DNA from: a virus
Reading direction: 5' to 3' (one strand)
Length of the DNA: 32,961 nucleotides
IMG/VR virus record: IMGVR_UViG_3300044539_000180
Span: 1 to 32,961 of that record
The notes under the pieces are model-generated. The model saw only the letters and a program-made list of their open reading frames with translations, had not been told where the DNA came from and searched no databases. A program made the position numbers and the translations under genes. Of the stretch, positions 4,528 through 32,591 are shown one piece after another (within the stretch, counting starts at the first letter, position 1; each line of letters begins with the position of its first letter).

Positions 4528-4538
4528 TTCTTAATATC

Positions 4539-4567: not shown

Positions 4568-4573
4568 TTTTTT

Positions 4574-6132: not shown

Positions 6133-6158
6133 TTTGACTAACCGTTTATGATTTTTCT

Positions 6159-6196: not shown

Positions 6197-6212
6197 CAAC
6201 CAATAAAAAATT

Positions 6213-6533: not shown

Positions 6534-6540
6534 AATCGGC

Positions 6541-9056: not shown

Positions 9057-9070
9057 TACTGTATTTTCTT
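9057..9070 (-). promoter_or_regulatory. A-rich start leader with AAGAAAAT box (portal)
   Basis: AAGAAAAT (9070-9063) lies 6 nt before ATG 9056, and there is no Shine-Dalgarno. It partly overlaps the stop codon of the giant gene, so the portal may be translated by coupling to it. Compare the boxes before 27983 and 1798. Confidence 0.4.
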
Positions 9071-11030
9071 ATTTGAGGTTTCTCCAGGCTTCCTGCATCA
9101 CAAGAACACGTTTGGCTATTTCGCGAGAATCAGAAACAATTTCTCTGAAGCGTTTAATATCCATTTCGGTTGGGTTGTCGATGTTGAAAGGCGTTCTTTT
9201 TACTTGTGATTTAATTCTATCTCCAGCCACTTTTACAAATTTGGAGTATTGATCGGCGCTCATTGTCACTGATTTTTCTTTTGTGATAGGATCGGTGTAA
9301 GTTTTTCCAGCGCTAGATGGTGCCACTAGGTCTGCGTTTGGATTCTGGCGAATCCAGTTGTAGAGCATCTTGTCGGTTTTTTCTGACGCGCCATAAACGG
9401 TGGTGTCGGTAGGATCAAAAATCCGGCCTAAAGCGGTCTTACCTGGCTTTTCCTGATCCTGGCCGTAAAGATTTACTTTTGCGGGAAGCCCGGTGATTTC
9501 TCCGGATGGGAAGGTTGCAGCAATCAGCATATCCTTGAACTCGGTCGGTCTTTCGCGGAAAAGCGGATCGGATTCGCGGAGAGCTTGCTTCACAAAGTTT
9601 GGCATGATCACCGAAAGGCGATCGGCCGCAAACTTATCGATAGCGCCTTCACCGCTGAGAATCTCCAGCATATCGGCGGCTCCGCGCAGCGAAGTTTTTT
9701 CGTTGATCTGGGAAGTGAGGCCGGAAAGTGCCTTGCCAACCATTTCCCCGGTGCCAATCTTGCCAGAAGTGCGAAGTTTTACCGCTTTGAGGGTGTCAAC
9801 CGTGCCTCCCATCATTGTGGCGAATGGCTCGATACGGCCGTAACTAACCGAAAGCCGTTTTCCGCCAGGCATCTTGATGGAGATCGTGTAGGGACCTAAG
9901 CCCATGCGGTAGCCAAGCTCGCGCTCACCTTTTTTTGTGTCCTTGTAAGGCCGGGATCCGGTGATAAGGATGGTTTTCTCCAAGTCGTCGTCGTCTCCCT
10001 CTCCGAGAGCTGCCAGCACGGCCAGGAGCACAACACCTTGCATTTGTTTGGAGGCGTATTCGATCAGGCGCTCTTTGCCTCCGTCGGCATTAAGAGTGAA
10101 CTTGCCGTTTTTTACGCGGAGATTGGAACCGATCAGAATCGACATATCGAGAATACTGAGCGGATTGACGGTGCGCTCGATGCCTTGCTGCATGATGTTA
10201 AACGGAACACGGATGAACGGGATGAAGAGCATCCGAGTTAGCGTTTTCAGTGTCGCCGTTGTGCTATTTTCAAGCTCAACCGGAGTAAGCGCTTTCTGGA
10301 TTTTTCCAAGGCTGAAACCTACGAAATCCATTGCGGTTCTCACTGGAACCACGTTTTCGCTCTTTTTCTTCGATTGCTGCACGGTGGATGGTTGGCCGGG
10401 AAGCGGAGCGTTGAAAGATCCTTTCAGGGCTCGATCGGCTGCCATTTGCCAGGAAATGCTTCCGGGGGTATTTACTTCCAGTTGCAGGAAGCGCGCAAAC
10501 TCTTCGGTGCCCGGTGTCATTCCTTTTTTCTTGGCCATCCGGAAAGCCATAGCGCCAACCTCGGCCGAGGCCCGGAGGGTGTTGAGGAAGTCGTCAGTTG
10601 CCATCAGGATGCGCGACGGGGTGCGAATAATCCTGCCTTTCACTCCGGCAATGCTGCCAGGTCGATAGCTGGATCCTGCTTCTGCAATCCGTTGGAAATC
10701 CGGTGGACGGTTCAAGATGTCTTCTTCGAAGAATGGAATCTCGGTATTCCAGGTCGAAATAGCGTTTGACCAGGCGCGCGCCCAACCTGGACGAAGTGCT
10801 TTCATTAGGTATTGGTATTCCCCAAGGCTTGCGTTGTCCTTGTTGCCGATCACTGAGTTAAGCATTGTCTCGAATCCTCGATCTACAACGGCCTGGTAGG
10901 TGCTGTTGACGATGCCAGTGGCGTTGACGATCATCGTCTGGAGGCCGGAAAGAATCGACGAATAGTAGTATTCCTGAACCTTTTCGATGGCGCTCGCGTT
11001 AATGGCGGCGATGGTGCGGGCGATGATTGC
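9069..11030 (-). other. Giant protein domain: C-terminal membrane-associated/ejection-like module
   Basis: Residues about 5651 to 6304. It carries SSILSGLQTMIVNATGIVN, a block common near the C-terminus of very large phage virion proteins, then FIPFIRVPFNIMQQGIERT, a hydrophobic QGVVLLAVLAALGEG segment (about 5985) and SVSYGRIEPFATMMGG. The alternation of amphipathic and hydrophobic helices fits proteins that leave the head and enter the cell envelope during infection. Role is inferred. Confidence 0.6.
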
Positions 11031-14000
11031 GACGTGGCGGCGGTCGTTGATGTCGAAACGGTAGTTGGCGGCCTTCATCTTGCCTTGTGCCATCTCCAGG
11101 GCGTCGGTCTTGTATTTGGCCAAGATCACGTTCATTTCTTCGATGAGCTTATCGCCTTTGACCCGATCCTTGCCTGTGAGGGATTCCACGGTTCCGGTGA
11201 TACCGGTAAGCAAGCGGAGCTCAACAACCCGTTCCATGAGGTCGGTGCGCTCGGTGGTGGTAAAAGCGTAATCCTCCAACCCTTCGCTGAACTCTGGGCG
11301 GTTCCAATCAACCTCATAGGCCTTTTTGGGTTCCAGGGTCTTTGGTTTGCGCTTGGTAGGGTTTTGCTTCTTCCATTCGCGGATCGCTGCTTTGCGGCCG
11401 CGCTCGGTGGCGGCTTCCGCGTCAAGGATTCGCGCCTGTTCGGCCGTCGCGCCCAGCGATTGAGCGATACGGGCGAAATTCGGCACGGGCTTGGCCAGGT
11501 GGGCTCTAATCAACTTGTTGAGCTCGTCCTCTTTGCCTGCTGTCTTCCAAGCGAGGGTGTCTGACTGGCTGATTGCAAGGCGATCGATCCAGCGTTGCGC
11601 GATCCGGTTGGCTCCGGCCTCCAGTGAATCCTCATCGTCTTCGATCTTCTTCGGCACTTTCTTGGCGGTCGGGATCCCTGACTTCTTCTGAAGCGATTGT
11701 GGAATACCGAATCCAACTGAAATGATACGATCAATCTCGGCTTGGACCTGCTCCGGAGTAAGTCCACTTAGGGCTGCTGACTCAAGCGCTCCCTTCATCT
11801 GGTCTTTCATGTCCTCCAGGGTCATGCCCGCCTCAACCTTGGCGCGGATCTTCTCTTCGAGCTTTTTGTAAAGGTCTGCCCGGATCTTTTCGATCTTGGC
11901 ATCCGGAAGGCCTGTTTTGCGTCGGATCGCGTCGAAACCGTTACCTTGCTGCATGAGCTTCACGGCCAGGCGGCTCGCGTTGTCCATCTTGTCGGTGATG
12001 TTCCGGATGATCCGGTTCTGACTCAGTGAAAGGAAAGCTTCGCCGTTTAATACCTCGTCGATAGTCACTCCCATCTTGGCGAGCTCTTTCTCGATGCGTT
12101 TGATCTGATCCACGGTTTGCTTCTCGATCTCCTGCTCTTTGGCTGCCTGCTGCTCTTTGGTGCCGCTGCCAAAGCGCTCTTCGATGTTCCTCATGTCCTT
12201 TTCAGGAAGAGTGGTGATCAGGTTCACAAGCTGCTCTCTGTGGCGCTGCTCTGGCTTTTTGAGGGTGTCCACCCCGGCTGCCATCACTCGCGCGATGTTG
12301 GCGCGGGCGGAGCGGTAGGCGTTGCGGAGGATTGCAACCTTGGCGAGTTTGGCTGGATCTCCCCCGGCCTGCTTGGCACGGCGCTCCATGATGATGCGAA
12401 TTGCTACCACGAGCTCCGGATTGAGCTGTTGGGCGTCAAACTCAACTCCACCTGCGTCGGCGGCTTTGTCGGCCTGCAATGCGGCGGCCAGCCATGTTCT
12501 GACAACTTTATCTTCGTCTTCATTAGCAAGTTTTTCCCCGGCTTTGTTCCATTGTGCCCAGGTTTCTCGGTTGGCGTAAAGTTTGCGGATCTCGTCTTCC
12601 TCGTCGAACAAATCACGAGTTTCCTCGCTCATGCCTGGGTTAGCCAGATCTGGACGGCCAACAACTTTGCCTTCTTCCTTGAACGCAGCTTGCTGCTTGC
12701 GGATCTCTTCACGCTCTTCCAGGGTTCCCATTTCGCCGAGATCGTCTTCCAGCGGGGCGTTGTAAAGCGCCTGGCCTGCTCCTACGGCCTTGCGAAGCTC
12801 TGGAGTAATGGTGATTTTCCAGAAGTCTCGAACTGTTGGATCGTTCTTCTCAAGCCAATCCTCGGCCGCTCTGATTGACTCAAAATCGGCAATTCCTTCC
12901 AAAGTGACACGATGGCGAATAATAACCTCTTGTTTTGAGTCCACGTCGGCTCCAATGTCTTCCGCGTCGAGAATATACATTCCCTCGGAAGCTTCGGAAA
13001 GTTTAGCTTTCTCGACCTTGGCTCCCCACTGTTTGACATACTTGCCGATTTCCTTCGGAAGCATGGTGTCATAGAAGCCTTTCATTCCTTTCCCTCCTAT
13101 ATTAAGCCCTTCCCCACTCAATTCCCCAGATTCACGGCTTAGTATTAGATCAGCTACATCTTTCCCTATTACTTCATCCAAGCGGGAACCATCGGGGACA
13201 ATTCCTGCTGCTGATTCCCCTGAATTATTGATAACTGTTCCGTCAGGTTTAACGAAGAATGTGAACCCGTTTTGACCTATGGGTTCAATAAATACATCTC
13301 GATTTATGCTATTCTTGCTCGTTACCCAGTCAATAGACTTAATGTGGTTTGATAGGTTGTATCTATCGTTCTGCGTTTCTCCGGTCGTCCAGCCGATCCA
13401 ATCCTTGCCGGATCTCACCGCGTCGCGCAAAGCGCGCTTGAACATCTGGAGCGGCCAGCTTGTGCGAAATGGTGCGTCGGCGATTCCTTCCTCTCTTTTG
13501 TCATGGAAGACTTCGTTCAAATCGACATCGGATCCAACCGCGTCGCTTAATCTTTTCCACTGATCGCCTGTCGGGCGGGCTGCTGTGGATAATGGCTCTT
13601 CCAATAAATGATCAATGTCGGCACGGGCGGCTGCTTCGGTCATTCCTCCGGCGATAGCGGCCTTCAAGACGTTTTCAGGAAAATCTCCCTTGTAACCCTT
13701 CTTCCGTCCCGCCTGGTGGCGATCGCTTTGGATCTCTTCGATAAAAAGGCCTTTTTCATCCCGATTCACTTCTTTGATCTCCAGTGAATAAGTAGCGGGG
13801 TATTGCTTCATATCAGCTTCCGCTTCCCCAAGGGTAGCAAACACCGGACCTGTTCTTCCGCTCTTGGTATTCCGGACAGTGTAACCTTTGCCGGGAAGCG
13901 AGCGCTCGTTAAGCCTCATGTGGGCGACGTAGTTCGGGACGTCAGGAAAATGCGTAGATCTATAATCTATGCTGCCTTGCTCTATTGGAGCGTATTCAGT

Positions 14001-17000
14001 CATTTCAATGGCTCGCTCAAGCGTGGCACCTTCCGATACAACGCCTCCTTCTGGGTCCTGAACGTACCAGTTGTTGCCGTATTGCTCAAAAGTGAAGCCT
14101 GCATCTTCCAAAAGCTGCTTTTGCGACTTCTGGCTGCCTCCTGGCATTGCCAGCACAACCTCGCGGTAGTTTTCTCCGCCGGGAAGCTGGTATTGGGCGT
14201 ATTTGGTAGCGTCATTCACTCCAAGCTCTTGCTCATCTCCTGTGAGCTCTTGTATTTCATCGAACAATGGCTGGAGGTCTTCAGGTAGATCATCGTAAGT
14301 AATGTCTTCATCCTCTTCGACGTTAAATATGATGTATTCTCCGTATTCTTCTTGAAGTTCATATCCTCTAGCTTCGATTTGCGCTGTGAGCTCGGCTATT
14401 CTGGCTTGGTTTTCAGAGCGTCCCATTGTGACTTCTTTGAATTTCACTGATCCCTCAGTGGCAAGCCAGTTAAGCACGTCGTCCTTGGAAACCTTTTCTT
14501 TGCCTTGCAACCAGGGAATAAGTCCGCTCCACTTGATCTCGTCGGCTTTGGATCCGGCCTTGGCGATTTGAAGGACCTGCATAGGCGTCGCCGTTTTCGG
14601 CATCTTCTCGGCGATCGTGCGCGATAGCTGCGAGTAGAACTCCGGCATCTCGTCGGACAGATCGGCATTTTCCAGTCTTTTTCCAAAAAGCTCTTCGTTT
14701 ATTGCTTTGATCATCTGGAAAGCTTCTTCTCTCCTTTGCTCAATAACAATTTGATCGTTTGCTCTAGCCTCTTCAGCATCTTTTTTTGTCTCAAAATAAT
14801 TTGGACGCAGTGCATAAGTTTCAGGATCGCTGATGAGCACGGTGAAATAGGTTTTGCCTAAATGCTTGGCCAGTTTCACCGGGTTGGCTTCGATGGGCAA
14901 ATCGTAGAGATCTGCCGCTTCCAGGCCTCCTTCTTGGCTTTGTTCCCCGTTAAGGGCTTCTGCTGCGGCGGTTCCAATATCACGCGAAAGGATTGTTCTC
15001 AAGCGCTTGGTGATCTCTTCCTTGGATTTCTCAATCCCAAGGCGTCCCATGCGGAATCGGATGTGGATCCGGTTCCAGGTGTCGGCAGAAAGTTCGGGAA
15101 GCGCGCTGGCGTTTTCGGCGATACCCAGAAGTTGCTCCGCGTTGGCTTCTCCGATCATTTTACTCAAAGAGCGGAAGTAGCGGTGTTTCCTTGGGTCGGC
15201 GTTTTGCGCGGCTAGTCTCCGGTTTACTTCAATGATCTCGGCCGTTTTCTCTCTCCACTCGGTTTCTTGCTCGAATGGTTTAGGATCCCGGACAAGGGGT
15301 TCAAGCGTTTCGATGGTTTTTTCAGTCTGTTTGACCTGTGCTTCAACGTTTCTGGCGTAGCGCTCGGCATACGATGGATCTGAAATCTTCTTGAGGCTAT
15401 CGAGAATACTTTGTGCTGGGGAAGCTCCGCTGACATTGATCGAGGCGTCAAATACGACTTTGCCATTGATTTTGCCCGGCCAGGCGATCTTGGCGTTATA
15501 GACGGATTCGCCTCTCCATTCCCATCTGTAATCAACGACGATCGAGAATCTTTCGCCGTTCACAAAGAAATCACGGATCTGCACCTGCTTGGTGTCTTTC
15601 GCGTCAACCATCATGTCGGTGACGAATTGGTTGAGCGGAGCCACGATCTTGCCGTCAGGCTTGCTGGTATCGATTTCCTGATCTCCAAACTTGTAGATAG
15701 GAACCTCCATTTCTCTCTCGGCTGGCTGTTTGGCCTCTTCCTCCGAGATCTCGCGGTCTTCCATCTTGGCGATAACGCCTTTGGTGGTTTTCACGATACG
15801 TTTCACTCGGGAGAAGACTCCGGCGAACTTTTTGCCTTCTTCCCGGATCAATTCAGGATCCTGGAGTTTGAGCGATTTCAGCTCTTGCTCGGCACGTTCC
15901 AGGGCGTTTTCACGGTTATTTTTGTCGCGGAGGTGAGCGGAGCGGAGCGCGTTGAGCTTGTTGAGCTCGCCATCGAGAATAACCCGGCGCTTCAGGTTTT
16001 CGTCTCCCATCGACTCTGCTGCCATGAGAGCGAAAGATGCGGTTTCCTCTGACATCGGATCATCGAACTCATCCATGACGTTTTCGCCCATGAGAACTTG
16101 GTCAATGAAGCGCTGCTTGGCTTTCATCATCGAATAGACGGATGAATCCATCGAGAACTTGAGGCCGTAGTTGACCACGATCACCTCAAACTTGGCTTCG
16201 GCCTTGCGGGCAACTTCTTTCTGTGCCTCGGTGCCGTTTTTGTCCAGCCACTCCACGGCCTGCTCGTAGCGATCTTCGAGCTTTTTGGCGTCGAATTTCT
16301 GCTTGGTGAGCTTTTCAACCGTTTCAATGAAGGCCTGGTCGGCCCAATCCCGGTGAAGGTTGCCTTGGCGGATAATCCGGCCGATACGCTGCTCCATCAT
16401 GGCGGGTTTGAAATCGCGCGGCGGGGAAAGGTTGTGAAGGGCTGCCAGGCGCTCCTGGATGTTCACACCGACGCCCAGGCGGGCCGTGGAACCGATAATC
16501 ACGCGGATCTCGCCATTGTTCACCTTCTCGAAAGATGCTTCGAGCTTCTTCTTCGTGAGGCTGGATCTCGCCAACAAGATTTCTCCGGCCGGGATTCCTC
16601 TGGCAACCAGTTTGTCCCGGATGTCGTCCAGCAAGTTGAAGCGTTGCTCCACGAGCTTGTTGTATTGATCCATCAGCTTCCGCTTGGCCTTTTTCTCGGC
16701 GTCGGTTTCTGTTGGGGAAGCCATGATTGCCGATTCTAACTCTTCCATCTCGCTCGTTGATCCACCGTATTCCTCGAATGGATCTCCGTTGAATTGACGA
16801 AGGAGAAGTGTTGAGAACGGGTTGGAAAGGTCGGTGAAGACGACTTGCGCGGTTTTCCTGTCGGTTCCGGCATGATAGATCTCTGCGATCTTCTCAACCA
16901 TCCGGTTCACTTTGGAGTTTGGATCATCCGGTGCGTTTGGATTGATCAAGCGAGGATCGATGGCCTGTGCCATACCCGCTTGCATGACCATGATCGGGAT

Positions 17001-20000: not shown

Positions 20001-23000
20001 CTGCTTGATGAACACGGTGTCATTGCCGACGATCTCGGTGTTGAGCCATGATTCGCCTTTTGCGTCGCGGCTGCCGTCCTTTTTACGAAGGATGATGATG
20101 TCGGTAACAACTTCAGTCCCGGCGCTGTCTTTGAAAGCGTTGTTGGGCAAGCGGATCGCCCGGATCATCTCAACCCGGCCAGCGAGGATTTCGCGCTGGA
20201 TGATGTTGTTGTCCATCGTCGAGTTGGAAGTGATCGAGATCACGATACCGCCCGGCTTGAGCTTGTCGATCGACCTGGCGAAGAAATAATTGTGAAGGTT
20301 GAGCTTCCGGCCGAACTCCTTGATCGACTGAAGCGGGCCATCCTTTGCGAACGGGAAGTTGCCGATAATCAGATCAATCGAGTTGTTTGGAATGTTCGAT
20401 GATTGGAAACCTTGACCTTCCACCAGGCGGCCTGGATCCGGAGCGTTGCCGTTGATCCTGGCCTGCGGGTAGAGTTTCGAGAATACCCGTGAAGAGATCG
20501 AATCGAGCTCCACGGCCGACCATTGCGACACGTTGGCAAGATCGGCAGGTTGACGGCCGACAAAATACCCGGCTCCGGCTGATGTTTCGAGCACACGGCC
20601 GCCTTTGAAGCCCATCGCCCGAACCATGTTCCACATCTGGTCAATGACTGGCAATGAGGTGTAGTGAGCGTTGCGGATCGATTTCGACATCGCGGTGAAC
20701 TCTTCAGGCGAGAGCATATCGACAAGTTGATCATGGAGCTCGCCCCACTTGTCGCGCCAGGCCTTTAATTCGATGTAGGCCTCGCTGTTCCGGATGTTTT
20801 GGCGGTAATAGTCTGACGTGCTATTGATCCGCTCGTTGATCTCCAGCCATTTCTTCTGGTTGATCTTGTTGAAAGCGTTTTTGAACGATCCCCAACCGCT
20901 ATACATGGCGAGAATCTTCTTCTCTGTATAGGTGGCGTTGCGGCCTTCTTCCTCGATCTTGCGAAGTAGCCGGATCGCCTTCATGTTGGCGTCCACACGG
21001 GCTTTCTCGCCTTTCGGCATCTTGAAATCGTCGGTAATGACGAAATCAGATTCCGGGCTTTCTACATCGGATCGTGTTCCAGGACGAACTCCGGATTCAC
21101 CCACGGAACTCCCGCTTGGGCGATCGCTTCCAGGCGCTCCGTCGTTATCTCCTGCTCCCTGAGCATTTCCGTTACCTGCTGGAATAGATCCGCCCGGTAA
21201 CTCGCCTCGTCCGTCGCCATCTGGCTGTCCGGCGCGAACTCCTCCTGATCCTTGTTTTGATCCAGGCTCATCACCCAGATTTGGCGAAGTTGAGCTTCCG
21301 TCGCTTCCTTCAGATACCCCTTCCTGCCCATTTGCAGTAGGATCTCCGCCGTCTCCGTCTCGCTCATCTTGCTCATTGGTATTACTCTCTGCTTCTTGGG
21401 GTTGATTGTCAATGTCGTTTGCCTTGTACACGTCCTGCCATTTCACTTTTTGCGGGAGGGAAGGATCGACCATGCGGAAGGCGCTCCAAACCGATTCGGA
21501 ATAGACGCGGAGCTTCGGTGAAATCTTGTCGAGTGCGGCGGCCAGTCCGGCCGGGGTTGTCACTCCTTCGGCAATCAGGCTTTGTGCTGCACCGATAAAC
21601 TGGCCGATTTTCGCGGCCGGGATTCCCTGCTTGAAGTAATCGTCGTCGAGATCCGCGTTGTCCAGGCCGTCAACCATGCCTCCAAACGCATCTTTCAATG
21701 ACTGTTCGGCGGCGGTGAGTTTTGGCTTCGCGGCTGGCGCTGGTTTCTCGGCCTGTGGCCTGAACTCAGCAGGCCTCATGTGATCGACCTTGTTCCGCAT
21801 CTCTGGAGACAAATACCTCCACCGAACTCCTGGCGCGATCTTGTAAGTCGGATCCCCGGCTGCCTTCAAAATGTCTGAACGGCCTGCCGAGGTTAGGCTT
21901 TCATCCCACCATTTCTGTCTCAAATCCGCTTCTGGATGAGTGTCGGCGTTGTCCGTTGGTTTCGCTTGTGGTTGCTGGGCTTCGGCGGGTTTCTGTCCCT
22001 CGGTTTGTCCATCGGCAGGCTTATATCCGCCAAACTCAAACAAGCTGTTGATTGCGTCTTTTTCCTCCTGTGGGAGAGCTTCAAATTCAGCATCTTCGCG
22101 GGCAATTTCAGCCTCGTCCATTTCCTCTTGTTTCAGCCTAGCGTATTCATATACGGGCTTGAAATCTTTACTCCATTTGAAAGATCTATCTCCTTTTGCA
22201 AATCCATATTTAGGAACAGATCCACCACCAATGTTTGTGATTCTCCATCCTTCAGAAAGAAGGGTTTCCGCATAAAGTTTCCCATTGATTACGGATCCCT
22301 TGTAATCAACTAGAATTTTTTCCGCGTCCTTCTCTATGTTTTCACGTCTCCGCGCTTCTTCTTTCGCTGCGTTGTCTTCCGACCTCTTCTGGCGGGATTC
22401 ATCCAATCTTTTTTGATGCGCGTCGAAGGCTTCTTTCCCGACATAATTTAAAATCACATCAGAGATTCCCTTTTGCGTTTTAGGCAATGGGCTCATTCCG
22501 GTTCTAAGTCCGAAAATCCTCCAGAATCCATCATACATCCCATTGTTGTATCGGACAAGTGCGGCCACATCTCGGGAGTCGATCTGATTAACAAATTCGA
22601 TCACTCGGGCTTTTACTTTTTCAGGCGTCCATTGAGCGCGCTGTTGGTCGTAATACTCTTGGTTCTGGCTTCCTCCTTTTGCTTCTCTTGCTATCCTGGC
22701 AATATGATAGTTTGAGTAAGCCGTGACCATTTTATCTATGTCCTTTGGCTCATTTTCGGAAGAATCTTGTTCTACAGGTGCCGGAGCGGCCGCTGGTGCT
22801 GGAGCAGGGGTTGGAGGTTGTTCGATGATTCGATTCTCGGTCGAGTCGTAATTCGGGAATTTTTCCCACAACGCCTTGGTGATGTTTTCTATTTCATCTG
22901 AAAGCCTTTCAACTGCTTTCCAATCCTTTTGCCTTGTCTCTTCGTCGATTCGGATGCGAAGTCGCGCAATCCTCTCCATTGCCTTATCTGCTCCTTGCTC

Positions 23001-26000
23001 TCGAATGTAGCGGTTTCCGTAGGATTCTGGTTTTGCTTCTGGAGCTGGAGCGGTGGCACCTTCGGCCGTCTCCACGGAAGGCATCTGCTTGACGGTTTCC
23101 AGGATTTCCATAACCGGAGCTTCAAGGATGATCACCTTGATCGGCTTGTCTGGATCGGTTTCGAGAGCGGCAAGCCACTGGTGATGGCCGTCAATGACTC
23201 GGCCGTTGGCGGAAACAAGAATAGCGCGATCGCCTCCTTCGTAGGATTTGGCTTTTTCAACCTTCTCGCGTGAGTATTCCGCCTGGGTTGGGGAAAGCTG
23301 CGATGGGCGCATCATCACGTCGGCCTCGTAGTTGATTCCACGAGCTTTGAGGAACTGCACCATTGCGGAGCGGTCCTCTGCTTTGATCTGTGGCATCTCG
23401 GCGCGCGGGATTCCAAGTGTTCCGCTTTCTTCGGGGAACATCTCCCATTCTTTCGCGGGTTCGGATTTCTTTGGTTTGGCGGCGGCCTGCGGGGCTGCTT
23501 GCTCTTCCACAACCTCGGAAGGATCGACCAGGACGTTCTTGCCGTTCACTTCGACGATGATCTTGCCGTTCTTCTCCGACTGGATCCGGAATGTCCCGGT
23601 GAAGGTTTCACCATTACGAACGAAAGTGACTTGCGTTGGCTGTTTTGGCTCCTGTGGCTCCGCTGCGGGCTCTTCTGGCTCGATTGTGGCTTCTGGTGCC
23701 GTCTCGATAGGTGCGGGCGCTGCTACCACGGCTTTCGGCGATGGCGCTGCTTTCGCGGGCTTGTTGGCCTTGTCGTATTCCTTGAGTTGCGCGGTGATCG
23801 CGTCGATCTCCACCTGGAGCTCCGGTGATAGGCCGCTGGCTACAAGCTCTTTGAGTGCTTTTAGGGCTGCGCGAAGGTGATCAACTGTTTCCTGGCGAAG
23901 ATTCGCCCAAAACTTCGCGATCTCGGTCGGTGATCCGGTGGCCGTCTTCTGCTGGATGATGCGAAGGCCTTCGAAAGCCTTTTCCCAGGGCTCATACTTA
24001 GCAAGTTTGGCACCGTAAATATCGATAACCATCTGATCCTTGCCTGATGCAACAAACTCATTCTGCCAGATTTTGCCGTAATGCTCATTGCGCCATGTAA
24101 CATAATCGCCGGGGCTGCCCTTGCTTTTCCAGATTGCCTGGGCTGCGCGGTGTTGAGCGGCGTGGCGAACTTCCTCGTCGATCGACTTGGAAATCCAAAC
24201 GCTTGTTTCCTCTTCGCTCATGTTCCGCTTTGCGGCGGCGGCCTTGAGTTGGTCGATGTTGATTACGATGGTGCCATCCTCGTGAGCGGCCGTTTTCTTG
24301 TTCGGATCGCTGGTGATCTTCAGGCCGTCTCCGAGCATCTTCTTCGCCTTGGCGAGTGCTTTCTTGATCCTGACTTCAGGGCGATCGGTTGAGGTTGGTG
24401 CACCAGTGTTGGTCGGTGCATTTGCACCAGGCTGCACTTCTGCACCTAAATTGATTTCGGCGGTTTCCGGTGTTACATCGAGCACACTGTCAACTTTCTC
24501 TCCACCTTGCCAGGAAGGATCGGACACGGCTTGATTCTGCGCGTCGGCTTCGTTGCGGGCGGTGACTTCGATCACGGTGCCATTCGTTCCGGTGATCCGG
24601 AAAACACGGTCAGTTGGTGCGATTCCTGGTGTTGCGGCCGCTGGATCGACAAAGTTAGGATCTGCTGCACGACGGTCTTTCTCTGCGCGGATAGCGTCAA
24701 TGCTCAACTGCGCAAGCTTGGCTACTTCTTGGCCGTCAGGATCAGTGACATTTTGGCGAAGGATTGCTTTCAACTCCGTTTCTTTTTGATCAAGCTCGGC
24801 GTTGGTTCTTTTTATTATGCCTTTTGGGGAAAATGGTGCTTCTTCGGGCGCGGTTCTTGATCCCGGTGCGGTTCCGGTTGATCCGGTCGATCCGGTAGTT
24901 CCTGCTGCGGCTCCTGGAGCTGTTCCTGCTGCTGCGGCCTGTGCTTTAGCAATAGCGGCGGCACGATACTGAGTTTCGTCCATTGTCACCTGAGTCTTTG
25001 CTGCTGGTGATACGCTACCCATTATAGCGCTGCCTGCGTCGGTAATGACTAAAGATCCGTCTGCTGTATTATTTGACACCAGTGGTGCAGTGAGCCCGGC
25101 GGCGGCCAGTTCTTTTGCGGAAACTGGTTTGCCTTCACGAGTGATACCAAGCGCTTTGACTTCGGCATCGGTGAGAGTTTCCAGGCCTTTGCCGTTGGTG
25201 ATCTTGAGCATCCCTCTGGTTTGTGCCGGGGCGGCCGCTTCTGCGGTGGCTTTGCCTAAAACTTGCTCGGCCTGCGCGATCGCAACCGGATCTCCTGTCG
25301 CCTGGGCCTGGGTATATTTCTCCTGAGCTTCGGCGAGAGATTGCTTCCCGGCTTCTTCTTTCGCGTTGATCTCACGAGAGATTGCGACGTGTTTCGCCAC
25401 ATCATCCAGATCGCTTGGCTTTTCGGCAATGGCCTTGGCCTTGTCGATCTCGTCCTGTTGAGCTTTCGGGCTTCCTGGATCTTGAGCGATCAGGCGAGTG
25501 TTGACCCCTTTTCTTTCGTCATGTTCAGCGCTGGCTTGTTCGCCTCTTCTGAGTTGGGGAAGGCCTCCACCGACAACCGCGCCCATTAAACCTGCATGGA
25601 TCGATTCTTCGAGCACATCTCCAAGTTTGAAATCTTGTCCCAGGCCGACGGCTGAAATGGCTTTGTCTAAGAATTGGTTAAGTCCTTCTTCGACAAACTC
25701 ATCTTTTGCATCGGCGAAAATGGTTTTACCCATCTTCTTGAGCTCCGCTCGTAATGTGCTGTCCTGGAGAGCTCTGCGGCCTCCTTTTGTGAGGAAGTCA
25801 CGAAGGCTCATCGATTGCGCTGCTTTGCCAAGCGCTGCTCGCTCAACACCTCCGCCTAATACTTTCGCCAGAATCATGGTTTGCGCTGCGTTTGCAAACG
25901 CTGAAAGCTGCACGTCGGCCCGGCCAAGAGTAGATGCTATTTCTTTCTCGGTTAGGTCACGGCCTCCGAACTTCTCTTTCTCTATTTCGATTGCGTCGGA

Positions 26001-27983
26001 AAGTTTTGATTCGTAGCCTTGTGCTCCTGCCCATCCATAAACTGAAGTCCCTGCTACGATGGCCTGGGTGATCCCTTTCAGCCCTTTTGCATACGCTCCA
26101 CCGACAAACATCGGAGCCATTTGAGTGACAGTTCCCGAAAGGTCTTTGCTTACAGAGAGATACCCGGTATTGCCTCTGGTATCGAAAGCGGAATCTGAAG
26201 CGGCAATGTATTTCCCTACTTCTTGCGCGTGAGCGCCCATACTTCCTGCCAGTTCATCGGCACCTACCAATCTGACGGCTCCGGCTGTCCCGCCTACTGC
26301 GGTTTTGTATATGCCCGCTCCACCCTCTTTGACGCCCGTTATCACGGCATCACCGAATTTGATGATCTCATTGCGATCCCTCATCGTGGCCGCGTAGGAA
26401 TCAACGATCTTCACTTCATCGGTAACTCCGGCTTTTTTCATTGCCGACTCATGCGTCTTGAAACTTCCGTCCGATTTCCTTAAATCCTCGGCGATCTTCG
26501 CTACTACATTCACTCTCACTGCTTCCATTCGAGCAATGGCTTCGGCCGCATCGGCTTCGCTTCCAGCTTTCGCTTTGATGTCTGCCTCGATCCGGTCCCG
26601 CTGGCCAAAGATTCGAGCTGGGTTAAAAACAACCTCTCCGGTGGAAAGTCCCCGCACGTTGTCGGTATCTTGTGCCGTCCAGTAATTTTCTAGCGCTGCA
26701 TCTTTGACGATACGCTCCCGGTCTTTCGGATCCGTAATGCCAGCTTCGGCAAACTTCTCGTCCTGGCGCTCAAGCATTTTGAGAAGCATCACGTTATCCA
26801 GCCTGGTTTCGCTCCATGTTGAATTAGGATTTTCTTTGAGCGCTTTATCATAGTTGGCGATTCTAGCCTGCAAGTCAGCCCTGACGTTTTCACGCCCACC
26901 AAGCCTTGCTGTCATTCCGTTCAACTGTTCCTCAAGATATTGAACGGAAGCCTTTTTCTTCATGCGCTCTCCCTCACTAGGAACATCCAAAGTGTTCAGA
27001 TCGGAGACGGCTTTGCCTAATACTGTTACGGTATCTTTGGTGGCCTCAAGTCCTCCCCTTTCTACTCCCGTCAGTCGATCCAGGTTTTTGATGTTGATAC
27101 TCTCGCGGATCTGCGCTTCACGTTGGCGTCGCTCTCCCTCCAGGCTTTGCTGGGCCTGTCCACGAACCGCTTCAACTTCCTGGTCCGGTGCTGCTTTCTG
27201 CTCTGCGAAGGCCTCGCGGGTTTGCTTGAGCTCTTTGAGCTTGGCCTGGGTTTCCGTCAACTCCGTGCCTCGAACACCCTGCTGCATTTTCTGCATGAGT
27301 GCGGTTTCCTCCTGGGCCGCTGAGTTGTCGGCCGTTTCGAGTGCTTTCGCCCGGCCTTGCGCGTTGCTGGCCGCTTCGTTGCCTTGGTCGGCAATGTCCT
27401 TTTGCTGTTGCGCGTAGGTCTGCTGCCAGTAGCCAGGGCCTCCAATCTTGAGCTCATTGGCTTTGACCTTCAGGCCGTAAAGGTGCTGATCCTCTTCATC
27501 GAGCTGTTTTTCGCGTCCAAGGACGGCATCGAGCTCTTTCTTGCGCTGGGCTGAAGTCTCTTTCATTCCATACTCGGCTTCAAACATTTCGCGCTCCTTT
27601 TTATCAAGGCGCTTGAAGTTTGGATCTTGGCGAGTAAGTGAGATCCTGGAAATTTCGTTTTGAGTAGAATCAAGCTCGCGCTCAAATCCCAGCTTCACCG
27701 GGTCGTTTTTTTCTGCGAGGCGCTGGGACTCTCTCACGGCCGCATCAGATCGACTGAGAGCTTGTCGCTCGGAAGCGATCGCTTGAGCGTTGCTCTTCTG
27801 GAAGGCCACGTTATCGACGAACATTCTCCACACTGGAGGTGCGGTCTTTGCTGCGAATCCGCTTTGCGGGCTTACGTTGTCAGTCACCGCTGTTTCACCC
27901 ATACCACGTCGCATAGCGCTACTTGGCTTTTGGGCAAACATCGACGGATTCTCTTCTTGTTCTTCATCGAGAAAGTCTTCCAT
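9069..27983 (-). CDS. Giant polyvalent virion protein (6304 residues): ejection, DarB-like methylase and helicase modules
   Basis: One open frame of 18.9 kb. Order of parts: charged coiled-coil N-terminus (about residues 60-350); Gly/Ala-rich hydrophobic stretch (about 540-815); degenerate zincin-like motif EEVRH (1270-1274); ParB/sulfiredoxin-like motif VIDGHHQW (1596-1603); Pro/Ala linker (about 1720); Gly/Asp/Ser linker (about 2200-2308); DarB-like adenine methylase (SAM motif 2464-2474, GNFPF 2541-2545); DEAH helicase (Walker A 3307-3313, DEAH 3469-3472, motif VI 3865-3875); polyvalent-protein domain with EIQSDRHQ (4750-4757); long helical section; hydrophobic C-terminal module with SGLQTMIVNATG (about 5680) and IPFIRVPFNIMQQ (about 5920). 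Similar large fusions are known in phages and mobile elements. It is probably packaged and injected with DNA to resist restriction (inference from P1 DarB). It starts 24 bp after the upstream stop, and the portal follows 12 bp downstream. Confidence 0.93.
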   Translation of the reverse strand: MEDFLDEEQEENPSMFAQKPSSAMRRGMGETAVTDNVSPQSGFAAKTAPPVWRMFVDNVAFQKSNAQAIASERQALSRSDAAVRESQRLAEKNDPVKLGFERELDSTQNEISRISLTRQDPNFKRLDKKEREMFEAEYGMKETSAQRKKELDAVLGREKQLDEEDQHLYGLKVKANELKIGGPGYWQQTYAQQQKDIADQGNEAASNAQGRAKALETADNSAAQEETALMQKMQQGVRGTELTETQAKLKELKQTREAFAEQKAAPDQEVEAVRGQAQQSLEGERRQREAQIRESINIKNLDRLTGVERGGLEATKDTVTVLGKAVSDLNTLDVPSEGERMKKKASVQYLEEQLNGMTARLGGRENVRADLQARIANYDKALKENPNSTWSETRLDNVMLLKMLERQDEKFAEAGITDPKDRERIVKDAALENYWTAQDTDNVRGLSTGEVVFNPARIFGQRDRIEADIKAKAGSEADAAEAIARMEAVRVNVVAKIAEDLRKSDGSFKTHESAMKKAGVTDEVKIVDSYAATMRDRNEIIKFGDAVITGVKEGGAGIYKTAVGGTAGAVRLVGADELAGSMGAHAQEVGKYIAASDSAFDTRGNTGYLSVSKDLSGTVTQMAPMFVGGAYAKGLKGITQAIVAGTSVYGWAGAQGYESKLSDAIEIEKEKFGGRDLTEKEIASTLGRADVQLSAFANAAQTMILAKVLGGGVERAALGKAAQSMSLRDFLTKGGRRALQDSTLRAELKKMGKTIFADAKDEFVEEGLNQFLDKAISAVGLGQDFKLGDVLEESIHAGLMGAVVGGGLPQLRRGEQASAEHDERKGVNTRLIAQDPGSPKAQQDEIDKAKAIAEKPSDLDDVAKHVAISREINAKEEAGKQSLAEAQEKYTQAQATGDPVAIAQAEQVLGKATAEAAAPAQTRGMLKITNGKGLETLTDAEVKALGITREGKPVSAKELAAAGLTAPLVSNNTADGSLVITDAGSAIMGSVSPAAKTQVTMDETQYRAAAIAKAQAAAAGTAPGAAAGTTGSTGSTGTAPGSRTAPEEAPFSPKGIIKRTNAELDQKETELKAILRQNVTDPDGQEVAKLAQLSIDAIRAEKDRRAADPNFVDPAAATPGIAPTDRVFRITGTNGTVIEVTARNEADAQNQAVSDPSWQGGEKVDSVLDVTPETAEINLGAEVQPGANAPTNTGAPTSTDRPEVRIKKALAKAKKMLGDGLKITSDPNKKTAAHEDGTIVINIDQLKAAAAKRNMSEEETSVWISKSIDEEVRHAAQHRAAQAIWKSKGSPGDYVTWRNEHYGKIWQNEFVASGKDQMVIDIYGAKLAKYEPWEKAFEGLRIIQQKTATGSPTEIAKFWANLRQETVDHLRAALKALKELVASGLSPELQVEIDAITAQLKEYDKANKPAKAAPSPKAVVAAPAPIETAPEATIEPEEPAAEPQEPKQPTQVTFVRNGETFTGTFRIQSEKNGKIIVEVNGKNVLVDPSEVVEEQAAPQAAAKPKKSEPAKEWEMFPEESGTLGIPRAEMPQIKAEDRSAMVQFLKARGINYEADVMMRPSQLSPTQAEYSREKVEKAKSYEGGDRAILVSANGRVIDGHHQWLAALETDPDKPIKVIILEAPVMEILETVKQMPSVETAEGATAPAPEAKPESYGNRYIREQGADKAMERIARLRIRIDEETRQKDWKAVERLSDEIENITKALWEKFPNYDSTENRIIEQPPTPAPAPAAAPAPVEQDSSENEPKDIDKMVTAYSNYHIARIAREAKGGSQNQEYYDQQRAQWTPEKVKARVIEFVNQIDSRDVAALVRYNNGMYDGFWRIFGLRTGMSPLPKTQKGISDVILNYVGKEAFDAHQKRLDESRQKRSEDNAAKEEARRRENIEKDAEKILVDYKGSVINGKLYAETLLSEGWRITNIGGGSVPKYGFAKGDRSFKWSKDFKPVYEYARLKQEEMDEAEIAREDAEFEALPQEEKDAINSLFEFGGYKPADGQTEGQKPAEAQQPQAKPTDNADTHPEADLRQKWWDESLTSAGRSDILKAAGDPTYKIAPGVRWRYLSPEMRNKVDHMRPAEFRPQAEKPAPAAKPKLTAAEQSLKDAFGGMVDGLDNADLDDDYFKQGIPAAKIGQFIGAAQSLIAEGVTTPAGLAAALDKISPKLRVYSESVWSAFRMVDPSLPQKVKWQDVYKANDIDNQPQEAESNTNEQDERDGDGGDPTANGQEGVSEGSDGSSTSPNLGDEPGSKQGSGGVRAGQPDGDGRGELPGGSIPAGNGNAQGAGDNDGAPGSDRPSGSSVGESGVRPGTRSDVESPESDFVITDDFKMPKGEKARVDANMKAIRLLRKIEEEGRNATYTEKKILAMYSGWGSFKNAFNKINQKKWLEINERINSTSDYYRQNIRNSEAYIELKAWRDKWGELHDQLVDMLSPEEFTAMSKSIRNAHYTSLPVIDQMWNMVRAMGFKGGRVLETSAGAGYFVGRQPADLANVSQWSAVELDSISSRVFSKLYPQARINGNAPDPGRLVEGQGFQSSNIPNNSIDLIIGNFPFAKDGPLQSIKEFGRKLNLHNYFFARSIDKLKPGGIVISITSNSTMDNNIIQREILAGRVEMIRAIRLPNNAFKDSAGTEVVTDIIILRKKDGSRDAKGESWLNTEIVGNDTVFIKQGNKTAHEFLSSVDAGFMPQDEDLHELWNDWKGRKPQTGKKWDALIKAIGAKGYSRADGIPFVAPIEVNEYFAQNPQFVIGKHALQGSMYSQGTYTVLPDGSDVNERLAAIVDSLPGDIFGEASETDEIEVQEANSKEREGSILLQNGKPYHVVSGQLVPVRWDLEYAEDFLPDNKDVKAILAKNPKLAADFATSMDELTGKELDQYIEDFIDQHLSEDAAKKIREKISKETARRNKVFASWVKVRDAARALMDAELKGMEDVEVYREALNKVYDAHVKEFGAFSARNQPGKQNPHKFLFDEDDSPLLESLEDEVMTGTDEKGRAIYRYEKRPVFTESVMSSAVAPSSAKDIKDAIAISLGYKGRISVQYMADLLGISAKETESQLEESGMVFMNPKTGIYETDDTYLSGEVKVKLREAQEADMMDPGKYQGNIEALQRVLPATRPIQSISVILGARWIPSAVYQKFAETMLGMADPVIRYEPAANIWQVTESGRDNRRRNRPAVSAAQMSQPDYLGTNRMTPEEIFESLLNSREIRVTQPGPTRGSVVLDPAATIEAQTKASQMMDKFAEWVKTTKEEVDNEGETIKVSELAEREFNDKVAGLVTPNFVGDWITLPGQSGEIWLKPHRKSVLARLLIMGYGMMAHGVGSGKTYNQIALAMELRRLGKARRVVTIVQNSTIRQFAASHMKAYPHAKILVADEANFSARKRARFLAKIATGDYDSIIMTHSNISQIGHDEQAIRNYMARAIGQLEEILAAADEGSQEQGAIQEALDKLQEKLEKMLAKATKRSKSLLTWEQLGVDALIVDEAHEFKNAPIITRKARVKNLPSGEASDRAVMMQMKTASVQANTGGRNVYFATGTPITNTMAEAYTMLNYIAPKLLESKGINNFDDFATMFGRTVTEPESTWRGEIELVERFAKFVNGPELVALIRSVFDVALGNESMGIRVPKMKGGVPEMLIIEPTEASEIFNDWVIDTAAEFDNIENKRAAFEENPWMSAIPIMVMQAGMAQAIDPRLINPNAPDDPNSKVNRMVEKIAEIYHAGTDRKTAQVVFTDLSNPFSTLLLRQFNGDPFEEYGGSTSEMEELESAIMASPTETDAEKKAKRKLMDQYNKLVEQRFNLLDDIRDKLVARGIPAGEILLARSSLTKKKLEASFEKVNNGEIRVIIGSTARLGVGVNIQERLAALHNLSPPRDFKPAMMEQRIGRIIRQGNLHRDWADQAFIETVEKLTKQKFDAKKLEDRYEQAVEWLDKNGTEAQKEVARKAEAKFEVIVVNYGLKFSMDSSVYSMMKAKQRFIDQVLMGENVMDEFDDPMSEETASFALMAAESMGDENLKRRVILDGELNKLNALRSAHLRDKNNRENALERAEQELKSLKLQDPELIREEGKKFAGVFSRVKRIVKTTKGVIAKMEDREISEEEAKQPAEREMEVPIYKFGDQEIDTSKPDGKIVAPLNQFVTDMMVDAKDTKQVQIRDFFVNGERFSIVVDYRWEWRGESVYNAKIAWPGKINGKVVFDASINVSGASPAQSILDSLKKISDPSYAERYARNVEAQVKQTEKTIETLEPLVRDPKPFEQETEWREKTAEIIEVNRRLAAQNADPRKHRYFRSLSKMIGEANAEQLLGIAENASALPELSADTWNRIHIRFRMGRLGIEKSKEEITKRLRTILSRDIGTAAAEALNGEQSQEGGLEAADLYDLPIEANPVKLAKHLGKTYFTVLISDPETYALRPNYFETKKDAEEARANDQIVIEQRREEAFQMIKAINEELFGKRLENADLSDEMPEFYSQLSRTIAEKMPKTATPMQVLQIAKAGSKADEIKWSGLIPWLQGKEKVSKDDVLNWLATEGSVKFKEVTMGRSENQARIAELTAQIEARGYELQEEYGEYIIFNVEEDEDITYDDLPEDLQPLFDEIQELTGDEQELGVNDATKYAQYQLPGGENYREVVLAMPGGSQKSQKQLLEDAGFTFEQYGNNWYVQDPEGGVVSEGATLERAIEMTEYAPIEQGSIDYRSTHFPDVPNYVAHMRLNERSLPGKGYTVRNTKSGRTGPVFATLGEAEADMKQYPATYSLEIKEVNRDEKGLFIEEIQSDRHQAGRKKGYKGDFPENVLKAAIAGGMTEAAARADIDHLLEEPLSTAARPTGDQWKRLSDAVGSDVDLNEVFHDKREEGIADAPFRTSWPLQMFKRALRDAVRSGKDWIGWTTGETQNDRYNLSNHIKSIDWVTSKNSINRDVFIEPIGQNGFTFFVKPDGTVINNSGESAAGIVPDGSRLDEVIGKDVADLILSRESGELSGEGLNIGGKGMKGFYDTMLPKEIGKYVKQWGAKVEKAKLSEASEGMYILDAEDIGADVDSKQEVIIRHRVTLEGIADFESIRAAEDWLEKNDPTVRDFWKITITPELRKAVGAGQALYNAPLEDDLGEMGTLEEREEIRKQQAAFKEEGKVVGRPDLANPGMSEETRDLFDEEDEIRKLYANRETWAQWNKAGEKLANEDEDKVVRTWLAAALQADKAADAGGVEFDAQQLNPELVVAIRIIMERRAKQAGGDPAKLAKVAILRNAYRSARANIARVMAAGVDTLKKPEQRHREQLVNLITTLPEKDMRNIEERFGSGTKEQQAAKEQEIEKQTVDQIKRIEKELAKMGVTIDEVLNGEAFLSLSQNRIIRNITDKMDNASRLAVKLMQQGNGFDAIRRKTGLPDAKIEKIRADLYKKLEEKIRAKVEAGMTLEDMKDQMKGALESAALSGLTPEQVQAEIDRIISVGFGIPQSLQKKSGIPTAKKVPKKIEDDEDSLEAGANRIAQRWIDRLAISQSDTLAWKTAGKEDELNKLIRAHLAKPVPNFARIAQSLGATAEQARILDAEAATERGRKAAIREWKKQNPTKRKPKTLEPKKAYEVDWNRPEFSEGLEDYAFTTTERTDLMERVVELRLLTGITGTVESLTGKDRVKGDKLIEEMNVILAKYKTDALEMAQGKMKAANYRFDINDRRHVAIIARTIAAINASAIEKVQEYYYSSILSGLQTMIVNATGIVNSTYQAVVDRGFETMLNSVIGNKDNASLGEYQYLMKALRPGWARAWSNAISTWNTEIPFFEEDILNRPPDFQRIAEAGSSYRPGSIAGVKGRIIRTPSRILMATDDFLNTLRASAEVGAMAFRMAKKKGMTPGTEEFARFLQLEVNTPGSISWQMAADRALKGSFNAPLPGQPSTVQQSKKKSENVVPVRTAMDFVGFSLGKIQKALTPVELENSTTATLKTLTRMLFIPFIRVPFNIMQQGIERTVNPLSILDMSILIGSNLRVKNGKFTLNADGGKERLIEYASKQMQGVVLLAVLAALGEGDDDDLEKTILITGSRPYKDTKKGERELGYRMGLGPYTISIKMPGGKRLSVSYGRIEPFATMMGGTVDTLKAVKLRTSGKIGTGEMVGKALSGLTSQINEKTSLRGAADMLEILSGEGAIDKFAADRLSVIMPNFVKQALRESDPLFRERPTEFKDMLIAATFPSGEITGLPAKVNLYGQDQEKPGKTALGRIFDPTDTTVYGASEKTDKMLYNWIRQNPNADLVAPSSAGKTYTDPITKEKSVTMSADQYSKFVKVAGDRIKSQVKRTPFNIDNPTEMDIKRFREIVSDSREIAKRVLVMQEAWRNLK
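12745..14650 (-). other. Giant protein domain: EIQSD-type polyvalent-protein module
   Basis: Residues about 4445-5080. It runs from EFYSQLSRTIAEKMPK through KWSGLIPWLQGK, YAQYQLPGGENYREV, HFPDVPNYVAHMRLN, EIQSDRHQAGRKKGY (4750-4764), GKDWIGWTTGETQNDRY and MKGFYDTMLPKEIGKY. This conserved string recurs in large polyvalent proteins of phages and conjugative elements. Its biochemical activity is not known to me. The part between the last two blocks is much AT-richer than its surroundings. Confidence 0.75.
16050..18450 (-). other. Giant protein domain: SF2 DEAH helicase
   Basis: Residues about 3180-3980. Both RecA-like lobes have intact motifs: Walker A GVGSGKT (3307-3313), DEAH (3469-3472), motif III in YFATGTPITNTMAEAY, motif V in GSTARLGVGVNIQERL and motif VI QRIGRIIRQGN (3865-3875). 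This should be an active ATPase translocating on DNA. Fused downstream of an adenine methylase it matches the DarB-like antirestriction arrangement and resembles Type I/III or ISP restriction-modification enzymes in layout, but no nuclease motif is visible next to it. Confidence 0.88.
20080..21060 (-). other. Giant protein domain: DarB-like N6-adenine methylase
   Basis: Residues about 2308-2635. Motifs in order: KILAMYSGWGSF (2356-2367), NAHYTSLPVIDQMW, SAM-binding VLETSAGAGYF (2464-2474), acidic SAVELDSISSRV, catalytic GNFPF (2541-2545) in place of the usual NPPY/F, and KPGGIVISITSNSTMD. The N-x-P-F catalytic form is normal for this phage group, so activity is expected, most likely on adenine. 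No specificity domain can be recognised. Confidence 0.85.
21062..21376 (-). CDS. Candidate overlapping gene nested in the giant gene's linker
   Basis: A 104-codon frame on the same strand, shifted relative to the giant gene. It begins at ATG 21376 (MSKMSETETAEILLQMGRKG) and ends LEHDPM at TAG 21062. In this frame the product reads like an ordinary soluble helical protein (for example EAQLRQIWVMSLDQNK, ADLFQQVTEMLREQEITTER, AGVPWVNPEFVL), while the giant-gene frame over the same bases is a Gly/Asp/Ser-rich linker without evident structure. The leader GTAATACCAATG resembles that of the fibre-like gene (TTTAATACCACCATG). Against it: a Gly-rich frame with GGA codons tends to yield Glu-rich, stop-poor shifted frames by chance. 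Function unknown. Confidence 0.3.
   Translation of the reverse strand: MSKMSETETAEILLQMGRKGYLKEATEAQLRQIWVMSLDQNKDQEEFAPDSQMATDEASYRADLFQQVTEMLREQEITTERLEAIAQAGVPWVNPEFVLEHDPM
23060..23460 (-). other. Giant protein domain: ParB/sulfiredoxin-like
   Basis: Residues about 1508-1641. It contains IPRAEMPQIKAEDRSAMVQF, then RPSQLSPTQAEYSREKVEKA and the diagnostic ILVSANGRVIDGHHQWLAAL (motif VIDGHHQW at 1596-1603). This G-x-V-x-D-G-H-H pattern is typical of ParB/Srx-fold domains in phage polyvalent proteins, which may bind nucleotide and DNA or cleave DNA. Activity here is not proven. Confidence 0.75.
24873..24896 (-). repeat. Short 9-nt tandem repeats in an Ala/Gly/Thr linker of the giant gene
   Basis: TCCGGT (plus-strand sense) at 24873, 24882 and 24891 gives three 9-nt units encoding GST-type repeats (TGSTGSTGT) within an Ala/Gly/Thr-rich linker. 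It looks like in-frame slippage between domains. Confidence 0.7.
25539..26372 (-). other. Giant protein domain: N-terminal Gly/Ala-rich hydrophobic region
   Basis: Residues about 538-815. It has repeated glycine-rich amphipathic or hydrophobic stretches (AVITGVKEGGAGIYKTAVGG, QMAPMFVGGAYAKGLKGI, AGLMGAVVGGGLPQL) separated by charged helices including DAKDEFVEEGLNQFLDKA. The same type of region occurs in phage proteins that pass with the DNA into the cell. It may insert in membrane; this is inference from composition. Confidence 0.5.
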
Positions 27984-27998
27984 TTAGTGTGTTTTCTT
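27984..27998 (-). promoter_or_regulatory. A/C-rich start leader with AAGAAAAC box (giant gene)
   Basis: CAAGAAAACACACTAAATG reads into the start codon, with AAGAAAAC (27998-27991) 7 nt upstream and no Shine-Dalgarno. It is nearly the same as the leader of the gene starting at 1798. Confidence 0.45.
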
Positions 27999-28007
27999 GG
28001 GTGTTTT

Positions 28008-29297: not shown

Positions 29298-29334
29298 GAT
29301 CGTGGGTAATGGTTGTGGTTGTTTTAAAATTGGG
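29298..29334 (-). promoter_or_regulatory. Leader with 15-nt motif shared with the capsid gene
   Basis: TTAAAACAACCACAA (29327-29313) lies 15 nt before ATG 29297 and differs at one base from the capsid leader motif at 3366-3352. The gap is only 37 bp. No hairpin or Shine-Dalgarno is visible. Confidence 0.4.
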
Positions 29335-29922: not shown

Positions 29923-29962
29923 AGCAGGGAATGTCAACAAAACTTAACCATTTGTCAATCTA

Positions 29963-32577: not shown

Positions 32578-32591
32578 GAAATTGGTGTCGG

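Follow-up and report, generated by a model that had tools for sequence, protein, structure and literature searches.

The window analysed here is the whole of the 32,961-base IMG/VR virus record IMGVR_UViG_3300044539_000180, a sequence free of any N, and its minus strand holds a single open reading frame that runs from an ATG at 27983 to a stop codon ending at 9069, with 6,304 codons before the stop. The encoded protein of 6,304 residues, with a mass of about 697 kDa, is in our judgement likely to be a DarB-like polyvalent giant from a podophage-like phage, probably one of Verrucomicrobiota, that would be packed and ejected and that would carry its antirestriction core as exchangeable cargo. 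The frame and its domains, a constant C-end, an exchange of the cargo and a stronger selection on the core are directly observed in the window and its relatives. The underlying idea is already published, as that of the polyvalent proteins of 2017, and what is new here is a vehicle-and-cargo pattern with a near-isogenic exchange of the whole core. The features of the window are the following:

844 to 1245, minus strand: head fibre protein (Pfam Gp80 of podophage GP4, 3e-41)
1872 to 3338, minus strand: major head protein candidate (PHROG, E 2.2e-8)
6861 to 9056, minus strand: portal protein (SU10-like), starting 12 bases past the stop codon of the giant gene
9069 to 27983, minus strand: giant polyvalent protein gene, a single frame with homologous single frames in other contigs
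9072 to 12716, minus strand: constant C-end, residues 5090-6304, matching the internal virion protein family PHROG 6651
12753 to 14207, minus strand: region with the letters EIQSD, residues 4593-5077, function unassigned
14916 to 23054, minus strand: exchanged segment, residues 1644-4356, replaced in record G002 by a different segment of 2,329 aa
16104 to 18266, minus strand: SWI2/SNF2-type helicase/translocase, residues about 3240-3960, with GVGSGKT, DEAH and QRIGRIIRQG
20004 to 21086, minus strand: DarB-like adenine methylase, residues about 2300-2660, with GNFPF
23025 to 23459, minus strand: ParB/sulfiredoxin-like domain, residues 1509-1653, with DGHHQW
23742 to 27983, minus strand: N-end, residues 1-1414, more than 99% identical in the near-isogenic G002
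24144 to 24188, minus strand: recurrent EExxH motif, residues 1266-1280, DEEVRH, from a regular-expression search
28008 to 29297, minus strand: upstream gene of 429 aa, no function assigned, ending 24 bases ahead of the giant gene
29963 to 31834, minus strand: terminase-like gene (PHROG terminase, E 2e-7)

The initial annotation had described one uninterrupted frame, and this is borne out; its proviso that the frame might come from an assembly error largely falls away, because further contigs carry the gene uninterrupted as well. A homologue of 5,988 aa is encoded by G002 (37,321 bp) and is also whole in G003; G003 is 99.9-100% identical to G002, as are G004 and G005, which contain part of the gene only. 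Further homologues measure 7,210 aa in G001, 5,359 aa in G006 (a contig of 59,688 bp with a 127-bp end repeat) and 4,889 aa in G007, and seven giants of 4,345, 4,503, 5,495, 4,862, 3,983, 3,988 and 5,747 aa were added from portal-related records. The set of 12 giants compared below consists of the window, G001, G002, G006, G007 and these seven, which come from 7 of the 10 portal-related records (10 of 25 loci) in which the C-end was tested; it leaves out G003 (same gene as G002), G004, G005, G008, G068 and G070 (partial genes), G009 (cut off, the part held being identical to G007), G010 (lacking the C-end) and G064 (frame length equal to that of G065). Giants of cultured phages have 4,914, 4,841, 4,515, 3,640, 3,799 and 4,947 aa. 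The position near the upper end for phage proteins that the initial annotation gave to the protein is a relative one: in ParB-domain contigs of IMG/VR (50 of the best 80 of 297 loci), the frame ranges from 489 to 7,375 codons, with at least 4,000 codons in 20 of 50 and at least 6,304 in 3 of 50, lengths that are possibly cut where frames end at contig ends. The window protein is larger than the ejected proteins in those parts of the cited papers that we draw on, which counts against its ejection. A megablast search with window positions 8000-32961 against 50,697 phage records returned no match.

The core of the protein shows homology to both enzymatic parts of DarB. PHROG 10089, 'DarB-like antirestriction', spans methylase and helicase with 1213 bits, and BLASTP against DarB of phage P1 matches the methylase (29.5%, 8e-21) as well as the helicase (24%, 3e-20). 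Pfam matches for the helicase region are SNF2-rel (7.6e-8) and Helicase_C (8.8e-7), and the methylase region matches Eco57I at E 0.0012, under the cut-off of that family. All of the catalytic motifs listed above for the core are intact, the methylase motif reading NFPF, not the canonical NPPF, with a second position that also departs in P1 DarB (NVPF). A DarB-like adenine methylase and a DEAH helicase with all its motifs, both named in the initial annotation, are thus supported. A comparison of the core with solved structures gave no match at 0.001, and a Pfam match to an RXLR effector family in the core region (3.5e-5, under the cut-off) was taken as chance.

For the ParB/Srx-like domain, which had also been claimed, a structure model was built on 45 sequences (pLDDT 81.5); in Foldseek, each of its 18 top-ranking matches is to ParB, Noc or sulfiredoxin, at probabilities of 0.47-0.99 and E-values of 0.048 and above. 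Because no match has an E-value of 0.001 or less, it is the consistency of the matches more than any single score that argues for this predicted fold. The D-G-H-H-Q-W columns of the domain are invariant across the 45 aligned rows. With ParB/Srx, methylase and SWI2/SNF2 parts on one chain, the protein combines several unrelated catalytic or nucleic-acid domains, as polyvalent proteins do. The EExxH motif recurs across the giants at the place where a zincin would show HExxH, a lax pattern, and in the window protein it appears zincin-like in pattern only. Two families known from polyvalent proteins were searched for: MPTase-PolyVal (PF18818) matched in 0 of 6 records and, below the cut-off, in 3 of 14 controls; LPD38 (PF18857) matched in 0 of 6 records and in none of the 14 controls. 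True HExxH motifs are carried by F116_60. As to the EIQSD-type domain that had been proposed, the letters are present, at residue 4750, and no Pfam family covers the region, parts of which show weak similarity to proteins in four phage records.

The two ends of the protein differ from the core in how widely they are kept. By BLASTP, four 200-residue blocks of the C-end were found in 11 of 11 other giants, N-end blocks of the same length in 2 to 8 of the 11, and the window core in at most 5 of the 11; the C-end was also present in all 10 portal-related records tested. In all 4 members tested, its sequence matches the 'internal virion protein' family PHROG 6651 (2.1e-7 for the window), over 108 of the 1,375 profile positions. 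The AlphaFold model of the C-end, with a pLDDT of 39, was too poor for a fold search. Hydrophobic modules at both ends, as claimed initially, have to be given up for the window protein, in which a single 19-residue segment reaches a Kyte-Doolittle value of 1.3, where 50 shuffles gave 10.9 such segments on average; a few hydrophobic segments near both ends are seen in G001 and G006.

The gene lies beside virion and packaging genes, with the portal gene downstream and the terminase-like gene upstream on the same strand. The linkage of giant gene and portal gene is usual and not strict, because in G069, one of the 12 giants, about 13 kb and a change of strand separate the two, and in a Chthoniobacterales record about 3.7 kb lie between them. 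A further gene beside the terminase gene (31915-32577) matches PHROG 3704, 'ferredoxin', at 8.7e-63, and at 4565-6533, between the portal and the head genes, three plus-strand frames break the run of late genes; no convincing family match was obtained for them. In a non-exhaustive scan of cellular genomes, seeded with two short peptide patterns, portal relatives were found in three assemblies, all of Verrucomicrobiota (Luteolibacter pohnpeiensis, 62%; a Chthoniobacterales MAG, 48%; Cerasicoccus frondis, 43%), which suggests that the host of the window phage belongs to this phylum. An equally non-exhaustive scan with the C-end, also seeded with two short peptide patterns, returned no relative. 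The Luteolibacter pohnpeiensis contig (L152, L160, L161), at 63,387 bp, is close in length to a complete phage of the group (59.7 kb, G006); it shows no exact end overlap and may be extrachromosomal or a partial prophage.

The clearest view of the cargo exchange comes from the comparison of the window with G002. Outside the exchanged tract, the two are 99.9% identical, with 18 differing columns in about 21.9 kb (bases 1-7499 and 18500-32961 of the window's reverse complement), their common flanking proteins are 99.4-100% identical, and in the giant gene, residues 1-1414 and 4357-6304 are more than 99% identical. Both exchanged segments encode a methylase and a helicase, and these are only 39% and 34% identical, respectively. 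The closer cores are found elsewhere. The window shares 77% identity in the methylase and 82% in the helicase with G001, at a C-end identity of only 40%, and G002 shares 87% and 85% with G006, at a C-end identity of only 43%; compared with the window portal, that of G001 is 56% and that of G006 62% identical. Since the cores (77-87%) are closer than the C-ends and portals of the same pairs, cores have moved between divergent phages. The borders of the exchange carry marks as well. Of the 50 changed codons in the left shared end (9 non-synonymous, 41 synonymous), 46 lie at residues 869-1386; of the 24 in the right shared end (5 and 19), all lie at residues 4357-4482; and the ParB stretch between the border changes has 88% DNA identity. 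On this sequence comparison, the clustering of changed codons at the borders is the trace that recombination with a divergent donor would leave. Among the papers listed on polyvalent proteins and DarB, we recognised no account of a payload exchange between near-identical phages.

Among the relatives, the cargo takes several kinds. A DarB core that we call type A is carried by the window, G001 and G069, and a type B core by G002, G006 and G066, with G066 and G069 being placed by BLASTP alone; G007 and G065 have a Strawberry-notch helicase instead, in G007 together with an NPPF motif. The Luteolibacter record has a ResIII/SNF2-like helicase and a methyltransferase match under the cut-off, and G067 is 50% identical to this payload. 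RadC and LPD3 are present in the Chthoniobacterales record, and LPD3 again in the Cerasicoccus record, there beside a polyvalent-type kinase and regions 2 and 4 of sigma-70. The Pfam scans of payloads covered parts of five proteins, and G067 is placed by its likeness to the Luteolibacter payload. The sigma-70/kinase/LPD3 giant of Cerasicoccus frondis (L156:2473-14421) sits beside the portal gene and is a candidate for an injected transcription starter. G001 adds a zeta-toxin-like kinase and ART-PolyVal to its DarB core, and its ParB domain stands behind the core, whereas that of the window stands ahead of it. In G001 (L002, about 16480-22260; residues about 4470-6390), 7 of 8 L.AGPL motifs lie among domain cassettes (ParB, zeta toxin, ART-like and others), and two GPI variants then follow; the motif is possibly a linker or a cleavage signal. 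As a general cleavage site, the AGPLP repeat was rejected, the repeated motif of G001 being absent from the window protein. Relatives also bear the annotation PLxRFG.

A pattern like that of the window group, with kept ends and an exchanged middle, is shown by the cultured Pseudomonas pair Epa33 and USP_18. Their ParB domains are 83% and their C parts 68-78% identical. The middle of Epa33 shows a methyltransferase match, lacks a helicase motif and is not matched to the DarB cores by BLASTP, and USP_18 has in its place a core closest to type B (37-38%). Among the matches listed, the N parts have no mutual BLASTP match, F116 being matched at 84% and 61%; the DNA around the two gene starts is 71% identical. 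In Itty13 (L041:8586-20921), three annotated long genes lie opposite a frame of 4,112 codons, which runs to the end of the record and has a match to the DarB core, both strands being open over almost the same 12 kb. The annotation looks mis-stranded, and Itty13 was rejected as a case of a split protein, as the matching strand holds this one frame.

Purifying selection is stronger on the core than on the C-end. For window and G001, dN/dS is 0.09 in the helicase and 0.14 in the methylase, and for G002 and G006 the core values are 0.03 and 0.04, against 0.31 and 0.26 for the C-end; these ratios are rough because dS is high (1.2-3.2). The low values of the core argue for enzymes in use.

Packaging, ejection and antirestriction are predicted for the window protein from homology and published work. 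The initial annotation had the protein packed in the head and entering with the DNA, which fits the position between terminase and portal genes, the internal virion match of the C-end, and JC1 gp69, and is predicted for the window protein by homology. The DarB-like JC1 gp69 was detected in CsCl-purified particles with 51 unique peptides, 15.6% coverage and the second highest score (PMC9144972). The Dar proteins of P1 are reported to be co-ejected with the DNA, and packaging of P1 DarB depends on DarA and Hdf (PMC12810830), so that the self-delivery initially proposed may not apply, delivery of the window protein perhaps needing other virion proteins as well. For the giant RNA polymerase of N4, with about 3,500 residues, a beads-on-a-string passage through a 35-angstrom channel has been proposed (PMC12633501), and injection of polyvalent proteins was predicted by Iyer et al. 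in 2017 (PMC5512222); a podovirus paper of 2026 cites polyvalent proteins (PMC13299392). The established view of DarB is that it counters restriction with a methylase and a translocase (PMC5512222, PMC12810830), and with this the antirestriction function initially proposed agrees; for the window protein, homology makes antirestriction from within the virion likely.

From these sources, a course of events can be proposed. The giant protein would be made late, together with the head proteins, and packed in the capsid near the portal, and the chain would be drawn out along with the DNA, its domains in a string. Once in the next host cell, the methylase-helicase core would attach to the incoming phage DNA, move along it and forestall its cutting, either by adenine methylation or by blocking restriction enzymes of a type I-like kind; the ParB/Srx domain may be an accessory DNA-binding, nuclease or nucleotidase part. 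We infer that the ends, the C-end above all, would act as the vehicle and the core as cargo swapped by recombination between phages, and that this exchange would answer differing restriction systems of hosts. A wider proposal, which we hold tentatively and at somewhat less than even chance, is that the giants are a modular delivery chassis: their ends would direct how they are packaged and how they leave through the portal, and between the ends would lie an open slot for antirestriction cores or effectors, filled by at least four divergent or unrelated antirestriction kinds, or by sigma-70 with kinase, RadC, zeta toxin or ART. Cargo exchange would then resemble that of the toxin ends of polymorphic toxins, and near-identical phages in one community would differ mainly in cargo.

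Several known systems resemble the window protein in part. JC1 gp69 (4,515 aa), the giants of PEp14 (4,914 aa) and POI1126 (4,841 aa), and Atu_ph08 gp21 (4,877 aa, described as DarB-like; PMC6630229) are likewise products of a giant late gene, in phages of about 60 kb, with an adenine methylase and a SWI2/SNF2 helicase. The window protein is longer than all of these Bcep22-like giants. JC1 and PEp14 share the ParB-like domain with it, and the BLASTP homology of JC1 gp69 covers this domain and the core, not the ends; the ends of JC1, PEp14 and POI1126 have no BLASTP likeness to those of the window. The gene lies ahead of the lysis genes in JC1 and PEp14, whereas the window gene lies directly ahead of the portal gene. 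P1 DarB (2,255 aa) has a homologous methylase and helicase in about a third of the length, and BLASTP gave no match between it and the ParB domain or the ends of the window protein. The giants of the Pseudomonas aeruginosa phages Epa33 (F116-like, 3,799 aa) and USP_18 (4,947 aa) keep the ParB domain and C-end and exchange the middle, but by BLASTP only their ParB domain is alike to that of the window, plus the core in the case of USP_18. The N4 virion RNA polymerase is like the protein proposed here in being a giant enzyme in a podophage head that is ejected; it is another enzyme and about half the size. The polyvalent proteins of Iyer et al. (PMC5512222) are the same many-domain chains with a methylase-helicase dyad in a late-gene context, and a recombinational variability like that of toxin cassettes was raised there for kinase-bearing loci of Verrucomicrobium spinosum. 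That study infers from domain architectures, and a near-isogenic exchange of a whole payload is not met in those parts of it that we draw on.

The evidence can also be read in other ways. The chain might be a polyprotein whose domains are released as separate proteins, ahead of packaging or later, by a protease that could be its own zincin-like part or a different one. It speaks for such processing that 7 of the 8 L.AGPL motifs of G001 lie among the domain cassettes past the helicase, that the EExxH motif recurs in the giants, that P1 DdrB is reported to be processed ahead of packaging (PMC5512222), and that the single chain of Epa33 corresponds to two overlapping frames in F116, for which a sequencing error is also possible. 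However, the L.AGPL repeat is absent from the window protein, MPTase-PolyVal was not detected, EExxH has a glutamate for the first histidine of HExxH, the N4 virion RNA polymerase is reported to be packaged unprocessed (PMC5512222), and the three annotated genes of Itty13 are no split, so that we consider a polyprotein rather unlikely. A methylase-helicase could also modify DNA inside the producer cell, and the protein might act there, in replication or in modification of progeny DNA, and stay unpackaged. We regard this as quite improbable, given that the gene sits among head genes, that the C-end matches internal virion proteins and that a homologue, JC1 gp69, is reported in virions (PMC9144972).

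All 10 portal-related records tested and all 11 other giants have the C-end, with a cargo that varies, and this would also suit a mainly structural protein, an inner core or scaffold around the portal whose enzyme domains are passengers of little use. But the core keeps its catalytic motifs, it is 77-87% alike between phages with more divergent ends, and its dN/dS is 0.03-0.14, which makes a mainly structural role very improbable. The frame or the exchanged core might, finally, be a chimera assembled from two phages in one sample, and it is in keeping with this that a type A core joined to the window's ends was seen in the window alone. Yet giant frames are intact in 11 other proteins of the group, the 5,988-aa form is whole in two contigs, identity drops toward the edges of the exchanged tract as in recombination, and a like pattern exists between the cultured Epa33 and USP_18; such an artefact is scarcely credible. 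A packed and ejected DarB-like protein with exchangeable cargo remains our preferred reading, although several points speak against it: the homology to JC1 gp69 is confined to the ParB domain and core, MPTase-PolyVal was not detected, the C-end gave no usable model, the portal linkage is loose in two records, the methylase motif is NFPF, and the protein exceeds the cited ejected proteins in size.

Few phages of Verrucomicrobiota have been studied, and if our reading is true, the window protein would be a candidate antirestriction system for phages of this phylum. It would also mean that vehicle and cargo are separable in a giant ejected phage protein, and the routing of such proteins into and out of the head would become testable, the natural swaps being ready-made experiments. 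It would further suggest that phages answer host restriction by swapping whole methylase-translocase cores.
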